A DNA stretch of 64,000 bases from Bacteroidota bacterium (GTDB lineage Bacteria > Bacteroidota > Bacteroidia > Chitinophagales > Chitinophagaceae). Shown piece by piece: positions 607-49,132 of the stretch. The notes under the pieces were generated by a model, which saw only the letters and a program-made list of their open reading frames with translations, was not told where the DNA came from and ran no database searches. The position numbers and the translations under genes are program-made. Every line of letters starts with the position of its first letter. Position 1 is the stretch's first letter. The stretch covers positions 62,001 to 126,000 of the forward strand of contig JAUZOD010000003.1 in NCBI GenBank assembly GCA_030706635.1. Reading direction: 5' to 3'.

Positions 607-724
607 GTTGACCGTTGACGGATTTCAGGTGTGAATCCGCAATTGACATCCGTCATCATGCTGCCCGATTTAAGTTTGAAGCCTGCACAGAAAGTCCGTC
701 AACGGTCATCCGTCAACCGTCAAC
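607..724. repeat. Dispersed 3'-end hairpin repeat, copy 1
   Basis: The left arm GTTGACCGTTGACGGAT can pair with the right arm, which contains TCCGTCAACGG and CCGTCAACCGTCAAC. The right arm runs up to the TAG stop of the ppiD-like gene. Between the arms is GTGTGAATCCGCA, containing the GAATnCGCA core shared with the other copies. This copy is longer than the rest, with about 70 bp between the arms. It may act as a terminator or as an mRNA 3'-end stabiliser. Confidence 0.75.
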
Positions 725-2865
725 TAAAGAAACTTGGCCCGGTTATCCTTCACTTTGGCCGTTTTTTCAAGCGCATCCACGGCCGCACGCTGGATGATCG
801 ACTCCTGGGTTTGCAACATGCTCTGGCGGATCTGTTCTATATCGCCGTTATAACTTGCTTTTGCTCCCACTTCTCTGATCTTAAGGACAAATACCCCTTC
901 GTTGCCACCTACGGGTTGCGAAACGGCCTTCCCCACGAGTTGTTTATCAAAAGCATATCCCACTACTTTGGGTTCTGGTCCAACATTGGGGATATAGGGA
1001 GAAGAAAACAAAAGGCTGTCCGCTTTGGCAACGGTCCGTCCCGTGGCAGCCGCAACGGCTTCCAGTGAAGTGGCAGACGCAATCTTTTGGGAGATCTGTT
1101 CCGCTTTTTTCTGATTTCTCAGAATGGGCTCAATGATTGGCCTTGCTTTGGCTTCAGTCATATCTCCCTTTTTATTGATCTCGGTTAGAATAGCTACTAC
1201 ATATTTATCTCCTACAGAAAAAGATTCGGAGACCTCGCCCAGCTTGGCATCGAAGATCCAGCGGACGAGGGAGCGGCTTGATCCAAGACCCGGAATGGTA
1301 AAATCTGTCGGGTGAATATCCTGAGCGGGGATTTTCTGGAGGTTTGCTTTTTTAACGTTTTCGTCAAAAGCGGCCTGGCTTCTGCTTTCGCCGGCAAACT
1401 GGCTGGCCAGTCCGGAAGCATTATCATCTGTCTCCGTACTGGGTTCAATTTTCCGGGCAAAATAAGCAATCTTATACGCGGGCTCAAAATTCTTCTGATC
1501 CTCGATCTCAATATAATGATATCCGAATTGGGTCTTAACTATCTTCCTTTCGCCCACCTTGCCGCTAAACACAAAATCCCCAAACTCCTTCACCATTTGT
1601 CCGGGTGCAAAATAACCCAGGTCGCCGCCTTTGATCCGGGTGCCCTCATCGTCAGAAAGATGGTATGCAACACTGTCAAACCGGGCGCCTTTATCAATCA
1701 GGTTTTTAATGCTGTCTATTTTCTTTTTTGCGGTACTGTCGTCCAGTGTTGGCTGATTCGTTTTCAGATTCACCGTGGCAACGAGTATATGACGGGCTCT
1801 CGCGGAGTCCGGCAATGTTTTAATATCCATGATCCGGGCAATAACATAATTCGGTCCATCCAGGTAAGGTCCGATAACGGATCCTTTGGGAAGCATGCTC
1901 AGCGAATCTTTTCTGGCTCCCGTTAATCTGGATTTGGGCGTATAGCCGTCATGATAATTGATTTCTGTGCCGTTGCGCGCCAGAAAACCTTCCACGTCTG
2001 CTGTTGTGCTGAATTCCTGTTTCAGATTCGTTACCTGTTGCTTTAGGGCATTACTGTCTGCCGCCGTAGGCGCTGCATTAAAAACCACATACCGGACGCT
2101 GCGGGAATCCTCCTGCTGATACTGATCCAGATGCTTGTCCAGATAGGATTCAATTTCCCCATCAGATATGCGGATTAAGCTATCCGGGATGGTTTGATAA
2201 GGCACATTTACGTAAGAAATGGAAGAGACCAGGCTGTTATCAGCGTTTGCCTTTTCAACCATCCATTTGGGGATATAAGAACTTTTGGCCAGTATGGAAA
2301 GATATTTGTCTTTCAATCTCATCTTGACGAACTGGGGCAGGGCCTGTTCAAAAAAGTTTTGGGCCATGGCATAGTTCTGGTCCGTCTTTCTGTTGCCTTT
2401 ATAAATTGTCCTTAGCTGATTTATTCTGGCAGCGGCCTGCTGAGGATCAAAAACACCCGTATTCGGATCTGTAAAGGCGCGCTTGATTTCCGGAAGGGCG
2501 TTCGGACCAACGAGCATGTCGTTCAACTCTTTGTCGCTTACGTCCAGGCCCAGTTTCTGGTACTCTGCCTTCAGCACGGCATCTTCTTTAAATTGTTTCC
2601 ATACCTCTTCCCGGATATTCTGTTGCATCATATCGTTCACCGGGTATCCCTGACTTTTATATTGGTCTTCACGTTCTGATATCTGTTTCTCGAAATTGCT
2701 GTAATCGAATTCTTCTCCATTTACAGAACCTACACTTCCTGAACTGGCAGCCAGACGGCTATTGCCAACGGAAGAATCCATCAGTAGAAATCCGATCAGG
2801 CTCACTCCAATCAGGCCAAAAACCAGCCATGCGGCTTTATCTCTGATTTGCTGAATAATAGACAT
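724..2865 (-). CDS. PpiD-type membrane-anchored peptidylprolyl isomerase / SurA N-domain protein
   Basis: This is a periplasmic folding chaperone of the PpiD type, 713 residues. One N-terminal transmembrane segment (about residues 14-36, WLVFGLIGVSLIGFLL) anchors it in the inner membrane. A SurA-like N-domain follows, then a parvulin (PPIC) domain at about 355-470, recognisable by RARHILVAT, GGDLGYFAPGQM and TQFGYHYIEI. The C-terminal part resembles the second, often degenerate, rotamase-like region of PpiD. I chose the start MSIIQQIRDK because it places the basic residues directly before the membrane helix; the open frame extends 39 codons further upstream but that stretch has no family resemblance. 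The role in outer-membrane protein folding is inferred from the family. A hairpin repeat abuts the stop codon. Confidence 0.85.
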   Translation of the reverse strand: MSIIQQIRDKAAWLVFGLIGVSLIGFLLMDSSVGNSRLAASSGSVGSVNGEEFDYSNFEKQISEREDQYKSQGYPVNDMMQQNIREEVWKQFKEDAVLKAEYQKLGLDVSDKELNDMLVGPNALPEIKRAFTDPNTGVFDPQQAAARINQLRTIYKGNRKTDQNYAMAQNFFEQALPQFVKMRLKDKYLSILAKSSYIPKWMVEKANADNSLVSSISYVNVPYQTIPDSLIRISDGEIESYLDKHLDQYQQEDSRSVRYVVFNAAPTAADSNALKQQVTNLKQEFSTTADVEGFLARNGTEINYHDGYTPKSRLTGARKDSLSMLPKGSVIGPYLDGPNYVIARIMDIKTLPDSARARHILVATVNLKTNQPTLDDSTAKKKIDSIKNLIDKGARFDSVAYHLSDDEGTRIKGGDLGYFAPGQMVKEFGDFVFSGKVGERKIVKTQFGYHYIEIEDQKNFEPAYKIAYFARKIEPSTETDDNASGLASQFAGESRSQAAFDENVKKANLQKIPAQDIHPTDFTIPGLGSSRSLVRWIFDAKLGEVSESFSVGDKYVVAILTEINKKGDMTEAKARPIIEPILRNQKKAEQISQKIASATSLEAVAAATGRTVAKADSLLFSSPYIPNVGPEPKVVGYAFDKQLVGKAVSQPVGGNEGVFVLKIREVGAKASYNGDIEQIRQSMLQTQESIIQRAAVDALEKTAKVKDNRAKFL

Positions 2866-3427
2866 ATTATATTTGTAGGGTTTTTGAAAGGATGGCAAAA
2901 ATAGTTGAAAAATGGTTATGAACAAATTGTGGAAAACAGGGAAAGGCACAGCCATCCTCATTTTAAGCGCATCGTTTGACAATGTCTGGTTAAATCTTCC
3001 GGAATTTAACCCGGCCCTCGTGAAACAACGGTAAAACAGTGGAACACATGCTAACAGGCCCTGGTGAATAAACCCTATTTATTGGTGTAAAACACAGATT
3101 TTTAACCCGGATTTCTGTGAAAGGAATGAGAGTAGAATTTATAATGAAGGCGTCGTTTTTGGTTTCCGGTGAACAAACAACTACTTGTTCCGTTTTTTAT
3201 TATATAAGTGTTATTAAATACTTATCCTGAACCCGGAATGGCTGATCGTTTGTGAATCAGGAAGAAATGCAATACAGGCGTGGATTTAAGGGTGTGGGTT
3301 GGATGTGGATAGCGGTGGACAATAAAATATTTATTCAAAAGCAATAATATTCTGGTAGCGTTTTCCACTAATTCAGGTCTATAATAGTAATAGATCTATT
3401 TAAATAAATAATGTATTATTATATATT
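2866..3427. other. Gene-free region with DnaA-box-like cluster (candidate oriC)
   Basis: No gene is visible here. GTGG-centred sites recur at 3280, 3294, 3305 and 3315, that is 14, 11 and 10 bp apart. The best, TGTGGATAG at 3304-3312, matches 8 of 9 positions of the DnaA box TGTGGATAA; GGTGGACAA at 3314-3322 matches 7. Outlying sites are TGTGGAAAA at 2938-2946 (8 of 9), TTATCCTGA at 3232-3240 (7 of 9) and TTTTCCACT at 3361-3369 (7 of 9). The next 100 bp towards nadA is extremely AT-rich and could serve as an unwinding element. The parS sites 3-4 kb away support an origin-proximal position. No dnaA gene is present, so this remains a candidate. Confidence 0.4.
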
Positions 3428-35277: not shown

Positions 35278-36714
35278 ATGTTCAATAAAAGGGTCAAAAT
35301 CAGGGAAGCTGTTCAGATGGACGCCGGAAAAGAGGAAATCACGGTGATGGGTTGGGTTCGTACTTTCCGGAACAACCAGTTTATTGCCCTGAACGACGGT
35401 TCTTCCAACGATCAGCTTCAGGTGGTTCTGGAATTGGGGAGGTTTGATGACACGCTATTGAAGAGAATCAGCACCGGAGCATCCATTAAAGCTACCGGAT
35501 TGTTGATTGACTCACCCGGAAAGGGTCAGAAAGTGGAATTAAAAGCCAGTTCGGTGCTGATTCTGGGAGAAAGTGACCCTGAGAAGTTCCCCCTGCAACC
35601 CAAAAAACACAGCCTCGAGTTTTTAAGGGAGATAGCGCATCTGCGGTTTCGTACAAATACGTTCGGCTCTGTTTTCAGGGTCAGGCATGGGCTTGCTTAT
35701 GCAACACATCAGTTTTTTCATGAAAGGGGCTTTGTTTACCTGCATACGCCCGTGATCACCGCTTCAGATGCGGAAGGGGCCGGGGAAATGTTTAAAGTGA
35801 CCACGCTGCCCTTCGATAATACGCCGAGAAATGAGGCCGGCGAGGTGAATTTTAAGGATGATTTTTTCGGTCGTGCCACCAATCTCACGGTGAGCGGACA
35901 GTTGGAAGGCGAGCTCGCCGCCATGGGTTTTGGGGAAATTTATACATTCGGCCCCACTTTCCGTGCGGAGAATTCCAATACAGCCCGGCACCTGGCGGAA
36001 TTCTGGATGATTGAACCCGAAATGGCTTTTTATGATCTCGAAGACAATATGGACCTTGCCGAGGCTTTTATCCGTTATCTGATCAGCTATTCCCTGAAGA
36101 ACAACCGGGCCGATCTGGAGTTCCTTGATCAGCGTCTGGCAGAGGAGGAGAAACAAAAACCCCAGGCCGAACGTAGCGAGCAGGGTTTGATACAGAAACT
36201 GGAATGGGTGGTCAGCCAGGATTTCCAGCGCATCACCTACACAGAAGCCATTGATATTTTGTTGCAGTCTCCTGCATATAAGAAGAAAAAATTCAAATAT
36301 GATGTAGCCTGGGGCATTGACCTGCAAAGCGAACACGAACGCTATCTGGTAGAAAAACATTTTAAAAAGCCGGTCATCGTTACCGGTTATCCAAAAGACA
36401 TCAAAGCATTCTACATGCGTCAGAACGAAGACGGAAAAACTGTTGCCGCCATGGATATCCTGGCCCCCGGCATCGGGGAGATTGTGGGTGGTTCTCAAAG
36501 GGAAGAAAGGCTGGATAAGCTGGAAGCGCGCATGCGCGAAATGCATATTCCCATTGAGCAGATGTGGTGGTATCTGGATACGCGCCGCTTTGGATCCGTT
36601 CCCCATGCAGGCTTTGGGCTTGGATTTGAACGGATGGTTCAGTTTGTGACGGGGATGACGAATATAAGGGATGTGATCCCTTTCCCCCGTACGCCAAAGA
36701 ACGCTGAGTTTTGA
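35278..36714 (+). CDS. asnS: Asparaginyl-tRNA synthetase
   Basis: AsnRS charges tRNA-Asn. The 478-residue protein has the N-terminal OB anticodon-binding domain ([19 protein letters not shown]) and a class II core: motif 2 [25 protein letters not shown], and motif 3 [16 protein letters not shown]. The start at [12 protein letters not shown] fits the family. An insertion at about residues 275-325 ([11 protein letters not shown]) is common in bacterial AsnRS. A TATCTTTG element lies upstream, and hairpin repeat copy 2 follows 30 bp after the stop. Confidence 0.97.
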
Positions 36715-36743
36715 CCGCATTTTTCAGGTCCGGGGAAATTATA

Positions 36744-36823
36744 GGTTGACGGATGACGGTTGACGGATTTTAGTTTTGAATTCGCACCTGAATCCGGTCA
36801 ACGGTCATGCGTCAACCGTCAAC
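36744..36823. repeat. Dispersed 3'-end hairpin repeat, copy 2
   Basis: The left arm GGTTGACGGATGACGGTTGA pairs with the right arm, which contains GGTCAACGG and GCGTCAACCGTCAAC. The central part carries TTGAATTCGCACC, with the GAATnCGCA core. It begins 30 bp after the asnS stop. Confidence 0.75.
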
Positions 36824-36903
36824 TGGATATTACCATTCAACCCCATCAGATACCGGTCATCCTATTTATTCTATCCGTCAATCCTTTTCAATTTGATAGT
36901 ATA

Positions 36904-36951
36904 ATATTCATAGTGAATATGTTATAACTAAATGCCTATAGTGGTTATAGG
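36904..36951. promoter_or_regulatory. Possible PadR operator inverted repeats
   Basis: Two inverted repeats lie 30-80 bp upstream of the padR promoter. PadR regulators often repress their own operon by binding such dyads. This is inferred from position only. Confidence 0.35.
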
Positions 36952-36981
36952 AAGTTAGTTCATTAAATATGGTACTTTGTC

Positions 36982-37012
36982 TTGCATAGTACTAAATAGT
37001 TTCTTACCTTTG
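36982..37012 (+). promoter_or_regulatory. Promoter of the padR-pspC operon
   Basis: TTG at 36982-36984 and TACCTTTG at 37005-37012 are 20 bp apart, a full match to the Bacteroidota promoter pattern. The padR start lies 62 bp downstream. Confidence 0.7.
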
Positions 37013-37074
37013 ATTCAGCAAGCGGATATAAGCGAATTTCAATAAAGGTTAAACGCGATATAAAAATCAAAGAC

Positions 37075-37425
37075 ATGAATATAGAAAACACACAGAGCCA
37101 GATGCGAAAAGGGATTCTGGAATTCTGTATTCTATCCATCATCCGGCGTGGAGAAGCTTACCCATCAGATATCGTGGAAGAAATGAAACGGGCGAATCTT
37201 CGCATTTTGGAAGGAACCCTATACCCCTTATTAACCAGGTTAAAAAATGCGGACATGCTCACGTATCGCTGGGTGGAAAGTAATTCGGGTCCCCCCCGGA
37301 AATATTTTTCCCTCACGGAAAAAGGCCTGGCATTTTATCGTGAGCTGGAAATGACGTGGAAGGAGTTGGCGGATGCGGTGGATACCCTGGCGAATAAAAG
37401 CGAAAGAATGTCTGAAAATTCATAA
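37075..37425 (+). CDS. PadR family transcriptional regulator
   Basis: This 116-residue protein is a winged-helix regulator of the PadR family, subfamily with short C-terminus. The N-terminal MRKGILEFCILSIIRRGEAYPSDI and the wing region LEGTLYPLLTRLKNADML are typical. The following gene, a PspC-domain membrane protein, starts 29 bp after its stop, so the pair is probably an operon. A full promoter lies upstream with possible operator dyads, consistent with self-repression. The paired PadR/PspC arrangement occurs in other bacteria. Confidence 0.93.
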   Translation: MNIENTQSQMRKGILEFCILSIIRRGEAYPSDIVEEMKRANLRILEGTLYPLLTRLKNADMLTYRWVESNSGPPRKYFSLTEKGLAFYRELEMTWKELADAVDTLANKSERMSENS

Positions 37426-37454
37426 TAATCGATCAATCCTCAAATAAGCATACA

Positions 37455-39578
37455 ATGAAAAAGATTATCAACATAAACTTTCACAGCCGGGTTATTCCGA
37501 TCGAGGAAACAGCGTACGAAATTCTGCAGAACTACATGGATAGTTTACGTAAGCACTTCTTGTCGGAAGAAGGGGGCGATGAAATTGTCAATGACATCGA
37601 AAACCGGTTTGCCGAATTGTTTTCTGAAAGATTGAAAAACGGAGCCAGCTGTATTACGGATGATGACGTGAATGCCACGATCACCAATATGGGCCGGCCT
37701 GAAGATTTCGATGATGAGGAAAGCGGCAGGTCAACCGGAACAACTTCAAATACAGCCGGCGCCGGTACTTATACCGAGGCAAAAGCAGAGGAACCGCACC
37801 GCAGTTTGTACCGTTCAGAGAACGACAAAATGCTGGGAGGTGTTTGCGGGGGACTTGCAGCTTATTTGCGCATCGACTCCTCTGTGATGCGTATTATATA
37901 TGCCCTGCTCATTTTCGCAAGTTTTGGGACGGCCCTGCTTTTATACATCATTCTTTGGCTGGTACTTCCGCCTAAATCCATGGTGACCGAAATCAAGAAA
38001 AGATTATACAGGAACCCGGATCAACGGGTCATTGGCGGTGTGGCCAGCGGACTCGCTGCTTATTTTAATATTGAAATCTGGATTCCCCGGTTGATTTTTG
38101 CTCTTCCGCTGATCATCGGATTTCTGACCTCTATTTTCCGTCACGTATGGTTTGATCTTGATAACGGGCCCGTATTTTTTACGGGAGGCTTTGGCGGAAC
38201 CTTATTTGTTACCTATATCATTCTTTGGATTGTATTACCGGAAGCCAATACCGCGTCGGAAAAGCTGGAAATGCGTGGTGAGAAAATAGATCTTGAATCC
38301 ATCAAGAATACCATTAAAGGAGATCTGGAAGGTTTCAAACAAAAGGCCAGCCAGGTAGGTGATGAAATGAAAAAGCAGGCACAGCAATTCGGTACGCAGA
38401 TCAGGAATAAATCCGCAGATTTTAGCAGGAACATGTCTTCCGGCCGGTCCCCGCGCCGTGGCATCGGGCATGCGATAGGCGTTTTATTTAAAGCATTCTT
38501 TCTTTTTATCGCGGTCATATTCACCTTTGCCCTGGTCATGGCCCTGATCGGGTTGATCTTCACCGGTGCCGGTGTGCTCCCCCTGAAAAACTTTATCATT
38601 GGCGGATTCTGGCAGAATATTCTGGCCTGGGGAGCCGTTCTGCTCTTCCTCATTTTACCGGTCGTTGGTCTGCTCACCTGGCTGATCCGCCGCATCATCG
38701 GCGCGCGCAAAGGCAGTAATTACCTGGGTTATATTTTTGGCAGTCTTTGGATCATCGGCCTGATCTGTATGTTGTCACTCATTGCCTCTGTTTCAGGTGA
38801 TTTCAGAACGCGTGCAGGCGTGAGCGAAGAGATAAAGATTTCTGCCCCGGCGAATGGCAAGCTCATCGTAAAAATGAACGATATAAAGCCGGTTGTTTAC
38901 GAATCTGACTGGATGGACATTAACTGGCAGCACAATTCACCTTTTTTTGAGGTTACCGAGGATAGCCTGGTGCTGAATACCGTTCGCGTTGATGTAGTGA
39001 AAAGCGCTGACAGCAGCTGGCATATGCGCCAGGAAAAACTAAGCCGGGGAAATACTGTAGCTGCTGCGCGGAGCCTGGCCTCCCAGATTGACTTTAATGT
39101 AGAGCAAAGAGACAGCTCACTTTATCTGCCTTCCGGGTTCTCCATCAGGCCCAAACAGCAATTCCGGAATCAGCAGGTAATGATTGTGATTGAACTGCCC
39201 ATAGGAAAAAAGATCAGAATGGACAGAAGTCTGGAAGATTTTCACTGGTTCGATTTCAACCGCAACTGGCGTCACCATGGCGTTGATTTCAATTGGGACG
39301 ATAACTTTGAGAATAATAATAATTCCCTGGAGAGTGACGTGGATTATACCATGACCGATCACGGCCTGGAAAGAAGTTCAGGCAGTATGCGGCAGGAGGA
39401 TCCTAAAAACCAGGATGAAGATCAACCTGGCAACGATGATCAAAAAGAGAATGCCCCCAAAGATGGGTACCGGTATCACAAAAAAGAAGTAAAAAAGGCT
39501 AACAAGGTAGTTTCTGCAGAATGCAGCAAGGATTGTGAAAACTTTTCTCCGCTGATTTTGTTTACGGGATGGAGCTGA
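37455..39578 (+). CDS. Membrane protein with two PspC domains
   Basis: This 707-residue protein starts with a soluble region (1-85) containing a helical stretch, followed by two PspC domains at about 120-180 (MLGGVCGGLAAYL) and 185-260 (VIGGVASGLAAYF), each with a membrane hairpin. A basic amphipathic stretch follows, then further helices (about 345-460), then an extracytoplasmic beta-rich domain and an acidic C-terminus. PspC domains belong to the envelope-stress response. The tandem PspC arrangement is typical of Bacteroidota homologues and probably links to membrane stress sensing. It is likely controlled by the PadR protein encoded upstream. Confidence 0.9.
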   Translation: MKKIININFHSRVIPIEETAYEILQNYMDSLRKHFLSEEGGDEIVNDIENRFAELFSERLKNGASCITDDDVNATITNMGRPEDFDDEESGRSTGTTSNTAGAGTYTEAKAEEPHRSLYRSENDKMLGGVCGGLAAYLRIDSSVMRIIYALLIFASFGTALLLYIILWLVLPPKSMVTEIKKRLYRNPDQRVIGGVASGLAAYFNIEIWIPRLIFALPLIIGFLTSIFRHVWFDLDNGPVFFTGGFGGTLFVTYIILWIVLPEANTASEKLEMRGEKIDLESIKNTIKGDLEGFKQKASQVGDEMKKQAQQFGTQIRNKSADFSRNMSSGRSPRRGIGHAIGVLFKAFFLFIAVIFTFALVMALIGLIFTGAGVLPLKNFIIGGFWQNILAWGAVLLFLILPVVGLLTWLIRRIIGARKGSNYLGYIFGSLWIIGLICMLSLIASVSGDFRTRAGVSEEIKISAPANGKLIVKMNDIKPVVYESDWMDINWQHNSPFFEVTEDSLVLNTVRVDVVKSADSSWHMRQEKLSRGNTVAAARSLASQIDFNVEQRDSSLYLPSGFSIRPKQQFRNQQVMIVIELPIGKKIRMDRSLEDFHWFDFNRNWRHHGVDFNWDDNFENNNNSLESDVDYTMTDHGLERSSGSMRQEDPKNQDEDQPGNDDQKENAPKDGYRYHKKEVKKANKVVSAECSKDCENFSPLILFTGWS

Positions 39579-39582
39579 AAAG

Positions 39583-39668
39583 GGTTGATGGTTGATAGTT
39601 GATGGTTGATGGCCTTTTGATGCGGATTCGCACCAGAAGGCCATCAACCATCAACTAACAATCATCAA
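39583..39668. repeat. Dispersed 3'-end hairpin repeat, copy 3
   Basis: This copy uses the GTTGATGG form: GGTTGATGGTTGATAGTTGA pairs with CCATCAACCATCAAC and neighbours. The centre reads GCGGATTCGCACC, whose reverse strand holds the GAATnCGCA core. It begins 5 bp after the pspC stop. Confidence 0.78.
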
Positions 39669-39720
39669 TGTTAAATGCTTATTTTCGCCCTTAAATCCCG
39701 CAAAACTTTATCTGCCTTAG

Positions 39721-40809
39721 ATGAAAAATACAGCCTTTACGCAAAAACATCTGGATCTTGGTGCGAAAATGACAGAATTTGCCGGTTATCTGATGCCGGT
39801 GAGTTATACCGGCATTAATGACGAACATCTGGCCGTGCGCTCCAATGCCGGCCTGTTTGACGTGAGTCATATGGGTGAGTTTTTACTGAAGGGCCCGCAG
39901 GCGCTGGATCTCATTCAGCGCGTCACTTCCAACGATGCGTCAAAACTGACCGATGGAAAGGCCCAATATAGTTGCCTTCCTAATATATCCGGAGGCATAG
40001 TGGATGATCTCCTGGTTTACTGCATAAAAGAAAATGCACTGTATATGCTTGTGGTGAATGCATCCAATATTCAGAAAGACTGGGATTGGATCAGCAGCTA
40101 TAATACCCGGGGGGTGGCCATGGAGGATATTTCCGACAGAACCTGCCTGCTCGCCATTCAGGGACCGAATGCAACGAAAATATTGCAACCACTAACGGAG
40201 ATGGATATCCTGAACCTGCCTTATTATCATTTTGTGAAAGGAAAGTTTGCAGGTATTGATAATGTATTGGTTAGTGCCACCGGTTATACCGGAGCCGGCG
40301 GCGTCGAAATATATTTTGAAGACAAGGAAGGATCTGCCGATAAAATATGGGGTGCTATTTTTGAAGCCGGTTCATCGCAAGGGCTCAAACCCGCCGGTTT
40401 GGGAGCAAGAGACACGCTGAGGCTCGAAATGGGCTATTGCTTATATGGCAATGATATAGATGATCACAGTTCTCCCTTGTCTGCCGGTTTAGGATGGATC
40501 ACCAAGTTCAGCAAGGATTTTGTTGGCCGTCCGGTGATTGAACAACAAAAAAAGGAGGGGTTAAAGAGAAGGCTGGTTGGTTTTGAAATGCTGGATCGAG
40601 GAATTCCCCGGCACGGATATGAGATTACGGATTCTTCCGGAACAGTTATCGGAGAAGTGACTTCCGGAACCCAATCCCCGTCCCTGGGTAAAGCCATCGG
40701 ACTGGGATATGTTGACCAGGCGTTCTCCCCTTTGGGTTCCAGGATTCATATTAAAGTAAGGGATAAACTATTGCAGGCTCTGGTAGTTAAACTTCCGTTC
40801 TTATCCTGA
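39721..40809 (+). CDS. gcvT: Aminomethyltransferase (glycine cleavage T protein)
   Basis: GcvT transfers the methylene group from the lipoyl H protein to tetrahydrofolate in the glycine cleavage system. The 362-residue length is normal. The N-terminal [34 protein letters not shown] and [16 protein letters not shown] are hallmarks, and [19 protein letters not shown] completes the folate-binding core. gcvH and gcvP are not in the window. A strong hairpin lies between its stop and comB. Confidence 0.96.
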
Positions 40810-40812
40810 TCT

Positions 40813-40855
40813 GAACAATCGCCGACCTCAGGAAGCCGCCTGAGGGATTCTGTTC
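40813..40855 (+). terminator. Nested hairpin between gcvT and comB
   Basis: The core CCTCAGG pairs with CCTGAGG around AAGCCG, and the outer arms GAACA and TGTTC extend it. It begins a few bases after the gcvT stop. An A/T-rich stretch with eight T residues lies about 17 bp further on, right before the comB start. Confidence 0.6.
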
Positions 40856-40878
40856 ATTCACAGGAAATTATTTTTTTT

Positions 40879-41610
40879 ATGCATGATTCAAAACCTTTAT
40901 TGCATACCTGTGCGTCCCCGGCTCTCCTTCATTTATATGATGTTGCCCAGGCCACCGTCGTTATTATTGATGTGTTGCGGGCAACCTCCACCATCGCAAC
41001 GGCCTTATTCAATGGCGCCAGATATATTATTCCGGTGGACAGTGTAGCCAAGTGCATAGAACTGGGCAGGCAGATCAGCTGCGTTACAGCTGGTGAACGA
41101 GACGGGAAAATTGCCGAAGGACTGCTTCATGGGAATTCCCCTTTTGAATATGCCCGGCCTTTTATTGAAAATAAGATTCTGGTGCTGACCACCACAAACG
41201 GCACGCGTCTTCTGCATATGGGGCTGGAAAAGGGTGCACGTGAGATCATCACCGGCTCCTTCTCTAATCTCAGCGCGGTGAGTAACTACCTGATCAATCA
41301 AAAGAATGATATTATCCTGGCCTGTGCGGCGTGGAAGGACCGGGTGAATATTGAAGATTTATTATTTGCCGGTGCGCTGATTGAGCGGGTCAAAGATCAT
41401 TTCTCCATTCCCTGCGATTCATCTCATATTGCTGAAACGCTGTATAAGAAGGCCAGTCATGATTTGTTTGGATTTATGAAATCAAATCATGCTTCGCATT
41501 ATGACCGGCTGATGGATTACGGGCTTGAAAAAGATATCCGGTATTGTATGGAGCAGGATCTGGCCAATGTACTTCCGATCTATGAGAACGGGAAACTCAG
41601 GGTTTACTGA
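40879..41610 (+). CDS. comB: Probable 2-phosphosulfolactate phosphatase (ComB family)
   Basis: ComB removes phosphate from 2-phosphosulfolactate. The 243-residue protein has the family motifs IDVLRATSTIATALFNGA, TAGERDGKIAEGL, LTTTNGTRLLHMG and ACAAWKDRVNIEDLLFAGAL. In archaea the enzyme serves coenzyme M synthesis; in bacteria its role is uncertain, with sulfolactate or other organosulfonate metabolism suggested. No other sulfolactate genes are nearby. Its end overlaps the convergent DUF885 gene by 7 bp. Confidence 0.88.
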   Translation: MHDSKPLLHTCASPALLHLYDVAQATVVIIDVLRATSTIATALFNGARYIIPVDSVAKCIELGRQISCVTAGERDGKIAEGLLHGNSPFEYARPFIENKILVLTTTNGTRLLHMGLEKGAREIITGSFSNLSAVSNYLINQKNDIILACAAWKDRVNIEDLLFAGALIERVKDHFSIPCDSSHIAETLYKKASHDLFGFMKSNHASHYDRLMDYGLEKDIRYCMEQDLANVLPIYENGKLRVY

Positions 41611-43412
41611 TGCATTTCCCAGGCGTCCATTTTTCTTTCGAATATATCGAGGGGCATGCATCCGTCTTTCAGCACTTCATCATGAAATGCTGAAAGATTA
41701 AAATAGGGTCCCATTTCATAGGCGTACCGGTTTCTCAGTTCGCGGATTTTCATGGCCCCTGTTTTATAACTCAGCGCCTGGGCCGGAATCGCGATGTATC
41801 TTTCTATCGCCGCAGTGGCATCCTCTTCGGTGATGGCCTCATTGTCCGTCATGTATTTGATCGCCTGTTCACGGGTCATTTTTTTCTGGTGCATGGCTAC
41901 ATCAACAACCAGGCGAATGGCCCGTTCAATCTCATCCCTCAGAGCGCCCATGTACTGATAAGGATCCGTATATAATCCCAATTCCCTGCCCAGGGATTCA
42001 CAATAGAGCGCCCAGCCTTCGCCGTAAGCGCCGTACCATGCAAATCTCCTGAAATCGGGCAGGAGCGTGTCTTCCATCTGCAAAGAGATCTGATAATGAT
42101 GTCCTGGAATGGCCTCGTGCAGAAAAAGCGATTCCATACCGGAAGTAGTATTGAATTTAGTGGCATCCGGTATCGGCACATAGAATATTCCCGGGCGTGA
42201 TCCGTGAGGATCGCCCGGATAGTATTCCGCACTGGCGCTGGCAGCCCGGAAAGCCTCCGTCTGGCGGATCTCAAAATCCATTTTAGGAGTATGTCCGAAA
42301 AGATTCTTCAGGTTAGGGTCAATCGTCCGCTGAATTTTCCTGAAAGCACCCAATACTTCGTCCGGTGTCTTAAATGGCATAAAACGCGGATTGGTTCTCA
42401 TGTAAGTAAAAAAAGAATCAAGATTGTCAGGGAAACCCGTTTTTGCTTTTGTCAATTCCATTTCTCCCCGAATACGTTTCACTTCGGATAAACCCGTTTG
42501 ATAAATTTCTTCCGGCGTTTTATTGGTCGTTGTCCAATACCGGATCAGGTAGTTGTACAAAGTATTCCCGTTCGGAAGATCATCAAATCCAATGCTGCTA
42601 CGGGATTTGGGTAGGTATTCATTTTGCAGGAAATCAGCCAGTCTTTTGTAAGCAGGGGACAGGATATCCCGTATGAGCTTTACCAGATCCCCGGTCACCC
42701 TTGCTTTATCCGGAGCGCTGAACGAAGCGGGTATAAGATTTGCAGGTCCGTAAAAAAGGCTTTTTGTAACATCACTGGTTACCATAGCTTCCATCTGCGG
42801 AATCATTTTGATCACAAGGCACCTGGGGAGCAGATATCCATTTGCAATGCCTTTTCTGAAATAGACAATAGCACTGTCTGTCCAGGCCGCAAATGCACTT
42901 GCACGACGTATCCAGTGATCATAATCCGTAACCGTTTTAAATGGCTGAATACCGGTGCCACTGCCCATCTGCCCCAGAAGCAGGGGTATGCCCTCAAATT
43001 GGTTAAAAGGCATGTATTGGAGATTGGGCATGATAACGGTATTGACAGAGAAACGGAGGTCGACCCCTTCCAGGCTGATTTCCATTTCTCTTTCAAAAAT
43101 ATCATAGCTGATCTGATCGTTTTCGCTCAGCATATCGCGGTTAAATTGCCTGATTCTATTCAGGTAATTGGAGTAAAAAAGTCGCAGCGTGTCCAGATAG
43201 TCATCGGTAAATTCTATCGGAAGCACATCATTGTACCGATTATTCCCATTCTGGGTAGCTTCGATGGGAATTATTCTACATCTGTCTTCGTAATAATTGT
43301 TAAAGACAATAGATAATTGCTTGTTATCCTGCATCGAATGCTGTGTATTCATGAGTTTGCATGAGGAAAATACGCAAACGATCAAGGCTGTCCGCAGAAT
43401 GGAATTTGGCAT
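41604..43412 (-). CDS. DUF885 family lipoprotein (putative metallopeptidase)
   Basis: This 602-residue protein belongs to the DUF885 family. The HEAIPGHH motif near residue 430 suggests a zinc peptidase, and downstream WALYCESLGRELG could supply a further metal-binding glutamate. The N-terminus has a lipoprotein signal (LIVCVFSSC, lipid-bound at C18). It is probably anchored in the outer membrane or periplasm. Family members occur widely but their substrates are unknown. It meets comB convergently. Confidence 0.88.
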   Translation of the reverse strand: MPNSILRTALIVCVFSSCKLMNTQHSMQDNKQLSIVFNNYYEDRCRIIPIEATQNGNNRYNDVLPIEFTDDYLDTLRLFYSNYLNRIRQFNRDMLSENDQISYDIFEREMEISLEGVDLRFSVNTVIMPNLQYMPFNQFEGIPLLLGQMGSGTGIQPFKTVTDYDHWIRRASAFAAWTDSAIVYFRKGIANGYLLPRCLVIKMIPQMEAMVTSDVTKSLFYGPANLIPASFSAPDKARVTGDLVKLIRDILSPAYKRLADFLQNEYLPKSRSSIGFDDLPNGNTLYNYLIRYWTTTNKTPEEIYQTGLSEVKRIRGEMELTKAKTGFPDNLDSFFTYMRTNPRFMPFKTPDEVLGAFRKIQRTIDPNLKNLFGHTPKMDFEIRQTEAFRAASASAEYYPGDPHGSRPGIFYVPIPDATKFNTTSGMESLFLHEAIPGHHYQISLQMEDTLLPDFRRFAWYGAYGEGWALYCESLGRELGLYTDPYQYMGALRDEIERAIRLVVDVAMHQKKMTREQAIKYMTDNEAITEEDATAAIERYIAIPAQALSYKTGAMKIRELRNRYAYEMGPYFNLSAFHDEVLKDGCMPLDIFERKMDAWEMHQ

Positions 43413-43723
43413 TAAAATGGAGTTTGCAAACTAAAGCTAAACCATTTCGAAACTTCATTTAACAGGCTTAAATAAAAATTTCGTTGACGGAATGCGCTGG
43501 GTTTTTCATTTTTGATATATATTCGCGGAGAATTCACGCAAAACCTACCCCCTGTTAAATACCAGCCTTACCTTATGTTATCAGACTAGTTATCCATGAA
43601 AATGTAATATTGTTGAATAAAGTTCGCACTGGTAGCGGATTGGTACAACAATTGCTATTGCGATAATATATTTTTCTAAGGCGTATAGATCTATTCATTA
43701 ACTCTCAATTAAAAATGATTCTT
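43413..43723. other. Gene-free region between the DUF885 and ompA genes
   Basis: No gene is visible. The stretch is AT-rich, and its right half probably contains the ompA promoter. I find no exact TAnnTTTG on either strand close to a start codon. Confidence 0.5.
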
Positions 43724-44599
43724 ATGAAGTTTAGGCAAATTCTACTTTTCGCGTTTTCCTCATTGCTGCTCTTTTCCTGCGTGAGCACCAAAAAATTCAA
43801 AGCTGCCCAGGCTGCTGCGCAAGCCCGTTTTGATTCCTTAAGCGCTGAATACGCAAAGCTCCAGGGAGACCTGAAGAATTGTAATACCCAGACAGCAGAC
43901 CTGACAAGCCAAAAAAATACGCTTCAGGGACAGGTTGATGACCTGAACAAGCAGGTTGCTTTCCTGAAGGACAATAATACACAGGCATTGAAACAAATGG
44001 AAGATCTTTCGGTGATTTCCAGTGCTCAGGCTGAAAGCATCAGAAAATCGCTGGAGAATATCGGTGCTAAGGATGCTTATATCCGGGATCTTCAAACGGC
44101 TATGGCCCGCAAGGATTCCCTGAATATGGCGCTTGTGATGAATCTGAAAGGGGCTATGGCCGACGTTTCCGATTCCGATGTAAATATTAAAATTGACAAG
44201 GGTGTTGTGTTCATTGACATCTCCGACAAATTACTTTTCAAAACAGGGAGTTCAACTGTTTCCAGCCGCGCCAAAACTGTGCTGGGTAAAGTAGCTAATG
44301 TGTTGAAGAATCAACCCGATATCGAATTTATGGTTGAAGGCCATACTGACAATGTTCCTTATAAAGGAAAAGGAATGGACAACTGGGATCTGAGCGTTCA
44401 ACGCGCTGTTTCCGTAGTGCATATCCTGCAACATAAATACAATATTCCTCCTGCAAAAATGATTGCTGCAGGTCGTGGCGAATATGTTCCGGTTACCACC
44501 AATGACACTAAAGCGGGTCGGGCTGCCAACCGCCGTACAAGAATCGTGATCCTTCCGTTACTGGATCAGTTCTTCAATCTGCTGGAAAGAAAAGGATAA
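43724..44599 (+). CDS. OmpA family lipoprotein
   Basis: This 291-residue protein has a lipobox ending at C19 (FSSLLLFSC), a coiled-coil region of about 100 residues (DLKNCNTQTADLTSQKN and following), and a C-terminal OmpA-like peptidoglycan-binding domain (about 155-275) with VEGHTDNVPYKG and GRAANRRTRIVILP. It should tether the outer membrane to peptidoglycan. I chose the start MKFRQILL, three codons inside the longest frame, because it puts the basic residues directly before the signal. A clear terminator follows. Confidence 0.92.
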   Translation: MKFRQILLFAFSSLLLFSCVSTKKFKAAQAAAQARFDSLSAEYAKLQGDLKNCNTQTADLTSQKNTLQGQVDDLNKQVAFLKDNNTQALKQMEDLSVISSAQAESIRKSLENIGAKDAYIRDLQTAMARKDSLNMALVMNLKGAMADVSDSDVNIKIDKGVVFIDISDKLLFKTGSSTVSSRAKTVLGKVANVLKNQPDIEFMVEGHTDNVPYKGKGMDNWDLSVQRAVSVVHILQHKYNIPPAKMIAAGRGEYVPVTTNDTKAGRAANRRTRIVILPLLDQFFNLLERKG

Positions 44600-44621
44600 T
44601 AATTTCATACGAATCAATTTT

Positions 44622-44652
44622 AAAGGCTCTGCATTTTGCGGAGCCTTTTTTT
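44622..44652 (+). terminator. Rho-independent terminator after the ompA-like gene
   Basis: AAAGGCTCTGC pairs with GCGGAGCCTTT across a short loop, followed by a run of T residues. It begins about 22 bp after the stop. Confidence 0.85.
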
Positions 44653-44843
44653 GTGGATGGTATATGGTTTTATAGTGTATGGATGAACATGAAGGATCCG
44701 GCTCCCTGACTGAGGGCAATAGGGGCCTGACATGAATTGCCGGAATATAGGGGTATTAAAAGTAAGGGAGATTAATGCATACACGCAGGAAGGTAAATGC
44801 CAAACAGGGTCGTCTATCCACTATCCACCATATACTATCCACC
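44653..44843. repeat. Variant 3'-end hairpin repeat (copy 6)
   Basis: The left arm contains GGATGGTATATGG and ATAGTGTATGG; the right arm contains TATCCACCATATACTATCCACC and abuts the TAG stop of the purF-like gene. The arms pair imperfectly over about 30 bp, with a 130-bp interior lacking the GAATnCGCA core. The layout is like that of copies 1 and 4, but the unit sequence differs, so membership in the family is tentative. Confidence 0.45.
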
Positions 44844-46691
44844 CTAGTATCCCCTGACGTTCTTTCCTTCGATATAATTGATGAAGGCTTTATTCACCAC
44901 ACGATTACCACCAGGCGTGGGGTAGTTGCCAGTAAAATACCAGTCGCCGGTATTGGTGGGACAGGCTTCGTGAAGTGATTCAATGGTCTGATAGATGACC
45001 TGAACGGGAGTCTGAATTTCCGGGGGTGTGATCAGTTGCGCAATCTTGTCTGATATCTCCTGTGTGGTAAATGGTTTATATACCTGCCGAACGATATTTT
45101 CGGTATGCAACTGACCTAATCGTTCGAGTTCTTTACAGTGCTCATACAGTTCCGTGAGGCATTTTTCTTTTCCTCTTTCTTTCATGAGTTCAATGGCTGC
45201 ACGGAAGGCGATGAAATCTTTCAGTTTACTCATGTCTATGCCATAACAATCCGGATACCGGATCTGGGGCGCAGAAGATACAATAATTATTTTTTTAGGC
45301 TCCAGCCTGGCCAGCATTCTTACGATGCTTTCCCGGAGTGTTGTGCCTCTTACAATGGAATCATCAATTACCACCAGCGTATCCAAACCTTTTTGCACGG
45401 TACCATAGGTAATGTCGTAAACGTGCTGCACCATTTCGTTGCGGCTTACATCTGAGGTAATGAAAGTGCGCATCTTGACATCCTTGATCGCAATTTTCTC
45501 AATCCGGATTTTCCGGTTGATCATCTGGGAAAGTTTCTCTTCCGTAACTTCATTTCCCCAGGAGAGAATGCGCTGGATCATGACTTTTTTCAAATAGTCG
45601 TCCAGTCCTTTCCACAGGCCGTAAAAGGCTACTTCCGCGGTATTCGGAATAAAGGAGAAAATACTATTCTTTAAATCCTGGTTGATAGCGGTTAGTATCT
45701 GTTCGCTGAGGTTATAACCAAGGGCAATCCTTTCCCTGTATATCTTTTCGTCACTTCCACGCGAAAAATAGATGCGCTCAAAACTGCAGGCCCTGCGTTC
45801 CCGCGGCGCCAGTATCTGATCTATGGAATATTTCCCATTTGATTTTACGATTAATGCGTTGCCCGGCATGAGTTCAAGAACCTCATTTTCGCCCACATTA
45901 AAAACGGTCCGTATAGCGGAACGCTCTGAAGCCGCCACAATAACGTCGTCACTAACATAATAATAAGCAGGACGGATTCCGTGACCATCACGAAAAACAA
46001 ATCCATCTCCATTTCCGATCAAACCGCCTACCGTAAAACCCCCGTCAAATAAAGGAAGCGCTTTCTGAAGCACTTTCTTTACATCCAGTTGCGCCGGCGA
46101 CTCCTCATCAGCCTGCACAATGAAATGGTGAATAACTTCCATCATCGCGGCAAGATCGCTCTGCTTCTGAAACTCACCTGGTTCGATGTTGATCAGCGCG
46201 AACAATTCATCAGTATTTACCAGATTGAAATTGCCCGCGAGTGCAAGATTGCGCGCCGGCAGCGTATTTCTTTTAATAAATGGGTGACAGAATTCCACAT
46301 TGTTTCTTCCCTGGGTTCCGTAGCGGAGATGACCCAGGAGCAATTCTCCCATCATGGAAATATGGCCTTTTAACAGTCCGGGATGACGCGTAATATCGGG
46401 TTGGTATTTTTCGAGGTCACTCACCTCCGTGTGAATTTTCGAAAAGATATCTGAAATGGGCTGATTGTTATTACTTCTTAACCGGTGAAGGAACGGATAA
46501 CCGGGCTCTACATCAAGCTTTACTGAAGCTACGCCAGCCCCATCCTGACCGCGGTTATGCTGCTTTTCCATGAGCAGGTAAAGCTTGTTTAAGCCATACA
46601 ATGCCGTACCATATTTTTGGAGATAATAAGAGAAAGGTTTGCGAAGCCGGATGAATGCCATTCCGCATTCATGTTTAATTTCGTCGCTCAA
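44844..46691 (-). CDS. Long amidophosphoribosyltransferase-like protein (PurF homologue)
   Basis: This 615-residue protein combines a class II glutamine amidotransferase domain (about 9-260) with a phosphoribosyltransferase domain (about 300-520) carrying the PRPP motif VVIDDSIVRGTT. Ordinary PurF is about 470-510 residues. The nucleophile would be C9 in HECGMAFI, after an eight-residue leader resembling a propeptide. The C-terminal 100 residues contain CPTNTGDWYFTGNYPTPGG, a feature of long Bacteroidota homologues. Whether it catalyses the first step of purine synthesis or has a related role is not clear. A TACCTTTG element lies 62 bp upstream. Confidence 0.85.
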   Translation of the reverse strand: MSDEIKHECGMAFIRLRKPFSYYLQKYGTALYGLNKLYLLMEKQHNRGQDGAGVASVKLDVEPGYPFLHRLRSNNNQPISDIFSKIHTEVSDLEKYQPDITRHPGLLKGHISMMGELLLGHLRYGTQGRNNVEFCHPFIKRNTLPARNLALAGNFNLVNTDELFALINIEPGEFQKQSDLAAMMEVIHHFIVQADEESPAQLDVKKVLQKALPLFDGGFTVGGLIGNGDGFVFRDGHGIRPAYYYVSDDVIVAASERSAIRTVFNVGENEVLELMPGNALIVKSNGKYSIDQILAPRERRACSFERIYFSRGSDEKIYRERIALGYNLSEQILTAINQDLKNSIFSFIPNTAEVAFYGLWKGLDDYLKKVMIQRILSWGNEVTEEKLSQMINRKIRIEKIAIKDVKMRTFITSDVSRNEMVQHVYDITYGTVQKGLDTLVVIDDSIVRGTTLRESIVRMLARLEPKKIIIVSSAPQIRYPDCYGIDMSKLKDFIAFRAAIELMKERGKEKCLTELYEHCKELERLGQLHTENIVRQVYKPFTTQEISDKIAQLITPPEIQTPVQVIYQTIESLHEACPTNTGDWYFTGNYPTPGGNRVVNKAFINYIEGKNVRGY

Positions 46692-46753
46692 TTTTATCTT
46701 TTTAATGGTGCGACGGAGCTTACGGTTCGTCGCTCATAGAAGAAAATGAAGCG

Positions 46754-46761
46754 CAAAGGTA
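46754..46761 (-). promoter_or_regulatory. -7 element of the purF-like gene
   Basis: The minus strand reads TACCTTTG, 62 bp before the start. No TTG is seen at the usual distance upstream. Confidence 0.5.
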
Positions 46762-46793
46762 ATTCAATTAACAGAAAGCGGAAAGCGGAGGTT

Positions 46794-47429
46794 TCAGATA
46801 TAGGTTGACCGGGTATTCATAAAGTTCACCAGGGAAGCCGAGTTCTTGAGTTTCAGCTTCTTGAGGATATTATGGCGGTGTACTTCCACCGTTTTCAGCG
46901 ATATTTGCAGGGCATTGGATATTTCTTTGGAAGAATGACCCTTTTTAATCAGATTAATGATTTCCATCTCCCGTTCTGTTACCGAGTTAATTGCGGCTAA
47001 AGCCATGGGTTTCCGCTCCGCCTGATCCGACATAATATCCTTGATTTCACTGCAGATGTATTTATTTCCTTCGTGAACCTTCACGATGGCCTCCATCATT
47101 TCTTCCCGGGAAGAGTTTTTGGTCACATATCCGCTGGCCCCGATCTGCAGCATTTTTCTGGCATAAGATGGCTGGGAATGCATGGTAACGCCAATAATCC
47201 TGGATTGCGGCCATACTTCCCGTATCCTCCGGGTGGCTTCCATTCCTGAGAAAGGAGTCATATTGATATCCATCAGGATTACGTCCGGATGTTTTTGCCG
47301 GGTTAGCTTGATGGCATCCTCCGCATTTTCACAAGATGCTACCACTTTGAACCTTACGTCGTTATTAAGGATGTACGTCCAGGTTTCTCTAATCAGTTTG
47401 TGATCATCCGCTATTAAAATACTTATCAT
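46794..47429 (-). CDS. NarL/LuxR-type response regulator
   Basis: This 211-residue protein has a receiver domain with phosphoacceptor D54 (VILMDINMTPFSG) and acidic residues D8-D9, then a LuxR-type helix-turn-helix (TEREMEIINLIKKGHSSKEISNALQISLKTVEVH). It is a typical two-component transcription regulator. No sensor kinase is adjacent, so the partner must be elsewhere. Confidence 0.94.
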   Translation of the reverse strand: MISILIADDHKLIRETWTYILNNDVRFKVVASCENAEDAIKLTRQKHPDVILMDINMTPFSGMEATRRIREVWPQSRIIGVTMHSQPSYARKMLQIGASGYVTKNSSREEMMEAIVKVHEGNKYICSEIKDIMSDQAERKPMALAAINSVTEREMEIINLIKKGHSSKEISNALQISLKTVEVHRHNILKKLKLKNSASLVNFMNTRSTYI

Positions 47430-47583
47430 ATTCGCGGGGTATTAATAATTGGGTTAAATAGGGTGATTTTACGAATAAAACGCGTGTTCAGGGCTTTATA
47501 TATATTTGTAATATACTTATAAGTGGGATGAAAATATAGCAGGAAGACCTGTATTTTGAAGGTACTAGGTGTTTACACTTATA

Positions 47584-48945
47584 TTAATTGGCAGTTGCGA
47601 ATTGCCGGGTTTCCCATTTAGCCAGGTTGGGGCAATGCTGATAGTCCTTGTCAATCATGATGTAATAGGTGCTGATCCTGGCCTGGAACCACTTTTGGAG
47701 GGCGTTATTTTTCTTTTCTTCCAGCGCCCGCTGGGCTATAAAGTTATAGTCATCCCTGAAATTCTCTTTGTGGGGCTCCGTTTTGGACAGCAGGTAAACA
47801 ATGCGAACGGCTTTTTTGCCCCTCTCGTCGGTATATAGCGTGGGTTTGGAGTACTGACCGGGTTTCAGATTTGCGTTTTTTAACAGGAGAACCATACCCT
47901 TATCCAGATTATCAAATTCCAAATAGTTTGAGCCATCCGGGGCCAGGATCATTCCTGCCGTATATTTCGCCATATCATCTTCGCTGTATCTGGCAACCGC
48001 TTCTCCAAAACTGAGGGTTCCCGCTTCGAGTTTATTCCGGATGGAGTCCAGATGGGCAATAGCCTCATTGGATTCTGTTTCGGTTATCTGGGGAATACGG
48101 AGAATATGACGGATGATGGCATCATCACCTGAGCGACTCACCATCTGGATGATGTGATAACCGAACTTCGATTTTATTACCGGGGAAATCTGTCCCTCCT
48201 TTAAGCGGAATGCATTGGACAGGAACACAGGATCCCATTGTTTATCATTTTTATTCAGCGAATAGGTACCTCCATTGTTTTTGGTTCCCGGATCATCGGA
48301 ATACAGGCTTTCAAGCGTTTCAAATTTCCTGCTTCCGTCTTCCACCTGTTTCTTATAGCCGTTCAGTTCCTCAATGGCGAGCAGTTCAATATCCCGGCTG
48401 GCTTTCGGGTAAACGACGATTTGGCCGATCTGCATTTTTGAATCAAAAAACAACAGGCTGTCCTTGGGAATTTTATCGAAATATTCCCTGACTTCGGTGG
48501 GCGTGATTTTAATACCATCTACAATTTTGCTGCGCATACCGGCCGCCATCCTTTGTTCCTTGATGGGCTGACGAAAATCTTCCCGCATCTGATAAATGGA
48601 TCTGCCGGAAATCTGTTCCAGGGCTTCCTTGCTTCCGTATTGTTGTACAAAATAACGGATGCGCTGGTCTATTTCCGCTTCCACCTCTTCATCGGTTACC
48701 GGGATGGAATCCTTTTGAGCCTGCAGCACCAGCGCCTTTTGGGTAAGCATACCATCGAGTAGGGCGCAATCACTTTGCTCCTGCCCCCCCTGTCTTTTGA
48801 TATCTTCATTGGCTATAAAGATCTCCGATTTCAGCACGATCTTGTCTCCAACGATACCAATGATCTTGTCTGCCACCACTCTTTGCTGGCTAAAGCCAAC
48901 AAATGCCAGGAGTATCGTAATGCCGGTTAGTAATATATTTTTCAT
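47584..48945 (-). CDS. SurA-like exported peptidylprolyl isomerase
   Basis: This 453-residue protein has a signal peptide (ILLTGITILLAFVGFSQQ), a SurA N-terminal chaperone domain (about 24-165), and two parvulin-type regions: a first at about 170-280 (GGTYSLNKNDKQWDP, SKFGYHIIQM) and a partial second. It should help fold outer-membrane proteins in the periplasm. Together with the PpiD-type protein it gives the window two foldases. The CAAAAATA on the plus strand close to the start could be its TATTTTTG -7 element. Confidence 0.92.
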   Translation of the reverse strand: MKNILLTGITILLAFVGFSQQRVVADKIIGIVGDKIVLKSEIFIANEDIKRQGGQEQSDCALLDGMLTQKALVLQAQKDSIPVTDEEVEAEIDQRIRYFVQQYGSKEALEQISGRSIYQMREDFRQPIKEQRMAAGMRSKIVDGIKITPTEVREYFDKIPKDSLLFFDSKMQIGQIVVYPKASRDIELLAIEELNGYKKQVEDGSRKFETLESLYSDDPGTKNNGGTYSLNKNDKQWDPVFLSNAFRLKEGQISPVIKSKFGYHIIQMVSRSGDDAIIRHILRIPQITETESNEAIAHLDSIRNKLEAGTLSFGEAVARYSEDDMAKYTAGMILAPDGSNYLEFDNLDKGMVLLLKNANLKPGQYSKPTLYTDERGKKAVRIVYLLSKTEPHKENFRDDYNFIAQRALEEKKNNALQKWFQARISTYYIMIDKDYQHCPNLAKWETRQFATAN

Positions 48946-49040
48946 AAACGGGAGCTAAGACGTTCAAAAATACGCCTGTTGGAAGATGTTAAAAGCCACC
49001 CAGGGGGATTTAACAAAATATTGCTGGTGCTTAAAATTCA

Positions 49041-49128
49041 GTTGACGGTTGACAGTTGACGGTTGACCGGCTCCAGTTGTGAATGCGCACATAAAAGTCC
49101 GTCAACTGTCAACCGTCATCGGTCAACC
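49041..49128. repeat. Dispersed 3'-end hairpin repeat, copy 4
   Basis: The left arm GTTGACGGTTGACAGTTGAC pairs with the right arm containing GTCAACTGTCAACCGTCATC. The single change GACAG in the left arm is matched by CTGTC in the right arm. The middle holds GTGAATGCGCAC with the GAATnCGCA core. It ends 4 bp before the TAG stop of infB. Confidence 0.8.
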
Positions 49129-49132
49129 TCTT

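Follow-up and report, generated by a model that had tools for sequence, protein, structure and literature searches.

Heptad-armed intergenic palindromes: a clade-specific, REP/MITE-like repeat family in Chitinophagaceae

The palindromes found in the 64,000 nt stretch of DNA analyzed here (the window), taken from a Chitinophagaceae genome, belong to a real, sizeable and clade-specific family of palindromic repeats that is of a known, REP/MITE-like kind and has an unusual heptad-armed form. Each element is about 80 nt long, with approximately four GTTGAYN heptads per arm inverted around a conserved, asymmetric core of ~30 nt. The copies are best regarded as lineage-specific short palindromic intergenic repeats behaving like non-autonomous mobile DNA, similar to MITEs or REPs, a reading given a probability of roughly 0.6. 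An earlier note on the window had proposed that four hairpins share one design and carry no gene; both statements are borne out, as the copies form one family with mirrored arms and a core, and the arm unit it gave as 7–8 bp is indeed repeated but is 7 nt long (GTTGAYN). The genome-wide search it had suggested shows a family larger than those four copies (93 in 597 kb of stretches picked around matches).

Copies in the window and size of the family

All four copies listed earlier are present in the window, and a repeat search run without guidance recovers them as families D2 and D3. The first (607-724, minus strand; covariance model E 1.2e-8) is a composite element: its conserved core, in minus-strand orientation, and short arms lie within 607-657, its outer right arm (698-724) lies directly against the stop codon of a SurA/PPIase-like gene (724-2982, minus strand), and its middle is longer and composite in comparison to the other copies. 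Copy 2 (36745-36823, plus strand; E 6e-17) is a heptad-armed palindrome with GAC-type arms downstream of an asnS-like class II tRNA synthetase gene (35278-36714, plus strand), while copy 3 (39584-39666, plus strand; E 3e-21) has GAT-type arms, follows a PspC-domain gene (37455-39578, plus strand) and folds more stably than any of the other three (-62.9 kcal/mol, z -13.7). Copy 4 (49041-49128; E 8e-15) lies downstream of infB, encoding translation initiation factor IF-2 (49133-51940, minus strand), and its core orientation is ambiguous (72.3 vs 72.0 bits). All four genes were assigned using Pfam. The distances of 0–30 bp from the preceding stop codon given in the earlier note hold, as copy 1 takes in the final base of the SurA/PPIase-like TAG and copies 2, 3 and 4 lie 30, 5 and 5 bp past their genes. 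RNA folding z-scores of the full copies range from -2.4 to -13.8 over both strands.

A fifth item in the window, absent from the earlier list, is a minimal heptad hairpin at 54890-54914 (GTTGATGG-loop-CCATCAAC, assigned to neither strand; fold z -4.5), which has no core and is likely a remnant of the palindrome family; it is flanked by a HAD-hydrolase-like gene and a GH3 gene, both on the minus strand. The window also holds three 125-nt direct repeats (58818-58942, 60266-60390 and 61650-61774; family D1) that are 68-73% alike, lie inside coding sequence and are probably paralogous genes.

Allowing at most one mismatch, the window contains 18 heptad pairs of the form GTTGAYNGTTGAYNG where 0.19 are expected, a number reached by 0 of 100 shuffles; GAATNCGCA alone is not significant in the window (7 vs 2.89 expected, with 6 of 100 shuffles reaching 7). 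Two heptads together with GAATNCGCA give 63 matches in the window's own genome, overlaps counted, and the reversed-pattern control gives 0. A covariance model trained on 39 copies from three genomes finds at least 150 matches on the two strands of the own genome, corresponding to at least 81 places by the author's count, and 199 matches at E ≤0.01 on both strands of 61 sources. From these sources (597,313 bases), 93 distinct copies were parsed for the analysis of context. As the 61 sources are the window and 60 stretches picked around matches, absolute occupancy is inflated. The context table consists of the best 150 alignment rows plus weaker matches added by hand, leaving out L066:7292 and L080:4064, which lie beyond the best 150, and the weak matches L051:7836, L098:15234, L083:2756, L092:9794, L096:2199 and L093:167 (E 5e-5 to 1e-3); gene calls were made with the author's own dicodon script, not a published gene finder. 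Chance, or a simple-repeat artefact, is rejected by the empty reversed control, the conserved core and the mirror-arm tests described below.

The distribution of the family is narrow. Of 33 genomes from the genus, 3 match the strict core pattern, namely the own genome (G000), G007 and G027, and in a sample of 394 genomes of the taxonomic family only the own genome carries it. Heptad arms without a set core are found in 8 of these 394; the own genome has 68 matches on each strand, and the remaining ones have 1 to 3. A symmetric pattern scanned over 84,980 species genomes, a set that may omit records close to the own genome, matched 17 stretches, all from the Chitinophagaceae MAGs palsa_953 and CRAIB_MAG53. 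Within the genus, at least one copy with a recognizably related core is present in G013 (L133), and G005 has GTTGAC arms around a different core. A few plain heptad arrays also occur in the own genome; one, a GTTGACA array of ~12 units at C76:48680-48764, lies outside any parsed palindrome.

Mirrored arms and the asymmetric core

The commonest form of the core is GACTTTTATTGCGAATCCGCACCTGAAGTC, in which an inner TGCG/CGCA pair surrounds a 4-nt loop and an outer GACTT/AAGTC pair closes the structure; between the two pairs is a non-complementary stretch that is unlike on its two sides. The two half-cores differ in the kind of their central four bases in 54 of the 60 cores that could be classified (76 examined, 30 expected), and in all 30 of those classifiable in G027 (54 examined), with the qualification that these copies were found using the asymmetric consensus (≥16/30 matches), a mild bias to asymmetry. 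Outward of the arms, the flanks show a weak pattern that is similar at both ends: they are C/T-rich and G-poor, with C in the first position and A-T-C in positions 7-9, which perhaps indicates a target preference or the terminus of the element.

In contrast to the core, the arms mirror each other. Among 27 elements with 4+4 units, identical heptads face each other in register at 53 of 108 positions, where shuffling right arms among elements gives a mean of 19.8 and a maximum of 37 in 5000 trials; sliding the arms one unit out of register leaves 11/81 and 13/81. Rare heptads, in which either unit departs from GTTGAY, have the same partner in 11 of 45 cases (shuffled 2.3%, maximum 12%), with mirrored examples such as GTATATG, GACGACG, GTTCATA, GATGACG and GTTGGCG (for instance at L104:2534, L084:4759, L054:4045 and L065:4054). 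The excess is weaker for the seventh base alone, which agrees at 78 of 108 positions against 68.4 in shuffles, 28 of 5000 of them being as high. In the 39-sequence alignment from three genomes, the covariation score of 0.213 exceeds that of all 500 shuffles (0.147) and all slid versions, and 89% of cells pair, although the pairs at the seventh base are broken in 12, 12 and 17 of the 39 sequences.

The compensatory change between arms claimed in the earlier note is thus genuine but partial, as 34 of the 45 rare variants have no mirror partner, and its statement that each right arm matches its own left arm describes the in-register excess across the family but not copy 4, in which the best match between the arms is shifted by one heptad. 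It had further offered two explanations, selection of an RNA structure or regeneration of one arm from the other; mirrored rare heptads fit regeneration as well as they fit RNA selection. Variants that alter several bases and are mirrored are most simply accounted for by template switching across the hairpin, perhaps together with selection on the hairpin. Template switching is described as homogenizing the arms of inverted repeats and inverting their spacers (PMC8604942). Quasipalindrome correction of this type, as outlined in PMC8604942 and PMC7202029, equalizes arms and flips spacers, comparable to the mirrored heptads and mixed core orientation seen here; it is, however, a mutation process rather than an element, and the core described here stays asymmetric despite such correction. 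If the arms are equalized by copying, then the core either escapes copying or is maintained by selection. Caution is needed before covariation in intergenic hairpins of bacteria is taken as proof of a functional RNA, because selection on RNA structure and homogenization by template switching leave the same signal. For the same reason, the many natural copies, with mirror-image arm changes that can be traced across species, provide a test bed for separating the two processes.

Palindromes of similar architecture and different sequence are seen in congeners. Heptad types differ by genome: GTTGAYN in the own genome, CAAGGTA-, GTGAGAC- and GAACGCT-types in G024, and a GTAAGTG-like type in G020. 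Perfect mirrored palindromes built from other heptads occur in G024 (L140:17216-17278 and L142:15869-15960) and in G020 (L149:17305 onwards), and further mirrored heptad palindromes were observed in G024 at L143:6321-6389 and L112:1425-1489. In random 20-kb stretches, period-7 runs number 6 in 120 kb of G024, 7 in 100 kb of G013 and 2 in 80 kb of G020, with 1 each in G010 and G025 and none in G018, G001, G030 or G015; in G024, runs of period 8 are equally frequent (7 tandem runs in 120 kb). An exact 13-bp inverted repeat with period-7 arms is found 3 times in G024, once in G020, twice in the window and 0 times in the other seven genomes. This evidence from congener stretches is suggestive of a broader reading, itself rather doubtful, by which the family would be one member of a genus-wide class of heptad-armed palindromes: heptad and core would vary by genome with the mirror design kept, an active process (a hairpin-copying mobilizer or structure-specific repair) would rewrite the arms in concert, and the same gaps would be refilled, conserving position and architecture and not sequence.

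Placement between genes, stop codons and turnover

Nearly all copies are intergenic, and their placement is far from even. Elements occupy 30 convergent gaps (53 unoccupied), 51 same-direction gaps (281 unoccupied) and 12 divergent gaps (84 unoccupied), so that convergent gaps are favored over same-direction gaps (odds ratio 3.1, p 8e-5) and divergent gaps do not differ from them (odds ratio 0.79, p 0.62). In 42 of 50 cases within same-direction gaps, the element lies closer to the stop than to the start, with a median distance of 11.5 bp on the stop side and 43.5 bp on the start side. The location at gene 3' ends first suggested from the window is accordingly a strong preference and not a rule, as 12 of the 93 occupied gaps are divergent. 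The strand of the asymmetric core shows no preference relative to the genes (28 of 50 agree, p 0.48, once two copies spanned by a called gene are set aside), which argues against a strand-specific 3'-end RNA signal; a sense-strand 3' RNA element was rejected as a candidate when the orientation agreement seen in the window vanished genome-wide. A lagging-strand link was likewise unsupported, with core orientation following GC skew in 43 of 74 copies (p 0.14).

Arms sometimes supply the stop codon of the adjacent gene. Of 108 gene 3' ends lying inside or within 100 bp of an element in the sampled stretches, 31 have their stop codon within an arm, and 26 of these are TGA, compared to 184 of 509 among all called genes. 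All but one of the 26 (25) lie 5, 12 or 19 nt into the arm, corresponding to the GTTGA of the first, second or third heptad. As each heptad contains TGA and the 7-nt period is not divisible by 3, three heptads place a stop in every frame. At site 1 of L103, for example, the gene ends in ...ATCAGCAGATGA with its TGA within the arm, while G027 and G007 have a TAA stop at that place and no element, an ancestral-looking TAA that appears to have been replaced by the TGA of the arm. The TGA positions of the heptads show no visible excess of conservation over the remaining fixed heptad positions. If this interpretation is right, the 7-nt period of the arms stops translation in every frame, and an element can end genes at little cost.

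In comparing gaps between relatives, both empty and shared sites are seen. The infB gap, filled in the own genome, holds no element in G007, G027 or G015; two gaps of L103 are empty in G007 and G027, and a third is filled in G027 and unfilled in G015, the G007 contig ending before it. The polarity of these differences is inferred, and the empty gaps could be losses. The asnS gap of copy 2 holds GAT-type elements in G027 and G007 and none in G015; plain TTTTTAA heptad repeats were also noted downstream of asnS at L119:1832-1863 (G027) and in the matching part of L121 (G007). In the G027 gap matching copy 3, L119:4480-4700 contains a different hairpin, with GTTATGG-like heptad arms and a core of ~85 nt. 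Among 61 copies of G027 compared to G000, 22 share a matching gap, 3 have an empty gap there, 7 are matched on one side only and 29 have no match in the G000 stretches fetched. This sharing is high, chance being expected to give a few per cent of gaps according to the author's estimate from gene density. The copies in shared gaps, however, are no more alike than random ones: in 20 pairs (19 of the 22 shared gaps, without L202:2171, L214:817 and L137:3496, plus the one-sided case L179, and with loosely aligned flanks in L178, L206 and L209), cores agree at 19.4 vs 19.2 of 30 positions (P 0.31), arm type correlates at r 0.05 and orientation agrees in 13 of 20. Arms are mostly GAT in G027 (mean fraction 0.73) and mostly GAC in G000 (0.30 GAT). 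Either a few permissive gaps have been hit repeatedly, or old sites have been kept while their sequence turned over.

Proposed mechanism, alternatives and known repeat classes

Under the mobile-DNA reading, copies would have spread by a mobilizer other than a Y1/RAYT enzyme, for which the search with PF01797 was negative here, and this mobilizer may recognize the hairpin together with its lopsided core, in the form of single-stranded DNA or a cruciform. One arm would be rewritten from the other when the polymerase switches template across the hairpin, which could also flip the core. Copies would survive mainly between convergent genes and just past stops, with promoters and coding sequence spared. 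Genes running into a copy would end there, and insertion at a gene end would be nearly harmless because three heptads stop all frames from either side.

The leading alternative, although an unlikely one, is that the copies are RNA structures at transcript 3' ends, where the hairpin would block exonucleases, be cut by RNase III or act in bidirectional termination, and selection for pairing would produce the compensatory arms. The very stable folds predicted for both strands make some RNA role possible, and the covariation of the arms, the preference for convergent gaps and for sites near stops, and the gaps common to two species are all in its favor. The absence of strand preference for an asymmetric core is less easily explained, but as a near-symmetric hairpin could work both ways it is not decisive; the divergent gaps among those occupied also fit poorly. 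The hairpins do not resemble intrinsic terminators, in agreement with the earlier remark that they lack T-runs: 25 of 152 flanks (16%) contain TTTT in the nearest 12 nt, vs 12% of 16,554 background intergenic 12-mers, as do 15 of 87 sense-side flanks, and none of the 21 terminator-like sites in 36500-49400 coincides with copies 2-4. In L048, a distinct hairpin of ordinary appearance with a T-run lies after the copy, and the window has no Rfam match at the gathering score.

Less probable is an explanation in which the copies are DNA sites kept for a chromosomal function, with a protein that reads the core or the heptads (for nucleoid structure, supercoiling or recombination) and gaps that stay occupied as sequences turn over. 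Retention of the core asymmetry, dissimilar copies in the same gaps of two species and random orientation are in line with this idea, but several gaps are empty in close relatives, strict-core copies are restricted to 3 of 33 congeneric genomes and, as mentioned, orientation has no link to GC skew. It is very improbable that the copies are simple heptad microsatellites which arose by slippage and are inverted by accident. Runs of GTTGACA-type heptads do reach 12 units in the genome (C76:48680), and heptameric repeats are described in other bacteria (PMC4679880, in outline); the shared core, the modal 4+4 arms, the in-register mirror variants and the reversed-pattern control of 0 nevertheless contradict it. 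The non-autonomous mobile repeat remains the preferred reading, and it is the one compared to known classes below.

The literature search found no paper describing the family, with the qualification that isolated matches to longer sequence strings may remain. The suggestion in the earlier note that the elements are REP-like is a fair description of their kind, although the REP-associated tyrosine transposase was not found, there being no PF01797 (Y1, RAYT-type) match in G000 (99.93% complete), nor in G007 (80%) or G027 (86%). The domain is present in 4 of 10 genomes searched (G024, G020, G018 and G001), of which G018 and G001 lack the strict core. The RAYT-type REP was therefore rejected as a class. 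Like GTAG REPs and BIMEs with RAYT, the family consists of many short intergenic palindromes with a 3'-end preference and presence/absence among relatives, but no PF01797 protein was found in the three carriers searched and the arms are repeated heptads of ~28 nt; an unpaired GTAG tag was not seen in the flank listing or the base composition of the copies. CGTC-tagged REPs, as outlined by Di Nocera (2013, PMC3733652), have an 8-9 bp stem, a 4-5 nt loop, an unpaired CGTC tag and a CCA-like tail. They are likewise palindromic intergenic repeats without a dedicated transposase, Bacteroidetes are among their five phyla, and one family has a 4-nt loop like that of the core described here. In contrast, the stem of the present elements is formed by ~28 nt of heptads per side plus the core, and CGTC occurs only within paired heptads. 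The family is set apart from both RAYT-REPs and CGTC-REPs because the defining tests of these classes failed.

As for MITEs, the elements are short, non-coding and present in 93 copies with terminal inverted repeats, and the infB gap and two L103 gaps provide empty sites in G007 and G027. No target-site duplication was detected, with 0 of 76 copies having a direct repeat of at least 6 bp in 15-bp flanks (3.1 expected), although flanking direct matches of 3 bp (6 vs 1.9) and 4 bp (3 vs 0.85) are slightly commoner than in shuffles. BrickBuilt of Porphyromonas gingivalis, compared here by its abstract description (PMC4596501), is also a non-coding inverted-repeat element, a MITE containing a minisatellite; the present elements differ in the lack of a detected duplication, in their size of ~80 bp and in having tandem heptads that themselves form the inverted arms. 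A final comparison is with the heptamer direct repeats (TAACTGA) of Beggiatoaceae, Cyanobacteria and some Bacteroidetes, which according to the account in PMC4679880 mostly lie just upstream of start codons. These share the seven-base unit, the intergenic location, the three-frame stops and, sometimes, an overlap with a gene end. As described there, however, they are direct repeats, with one inverted exception in BOGUAY, and the family described here falls outside the definition of such arrays, as its heptads form inverted arms mirrored around a conserved core.
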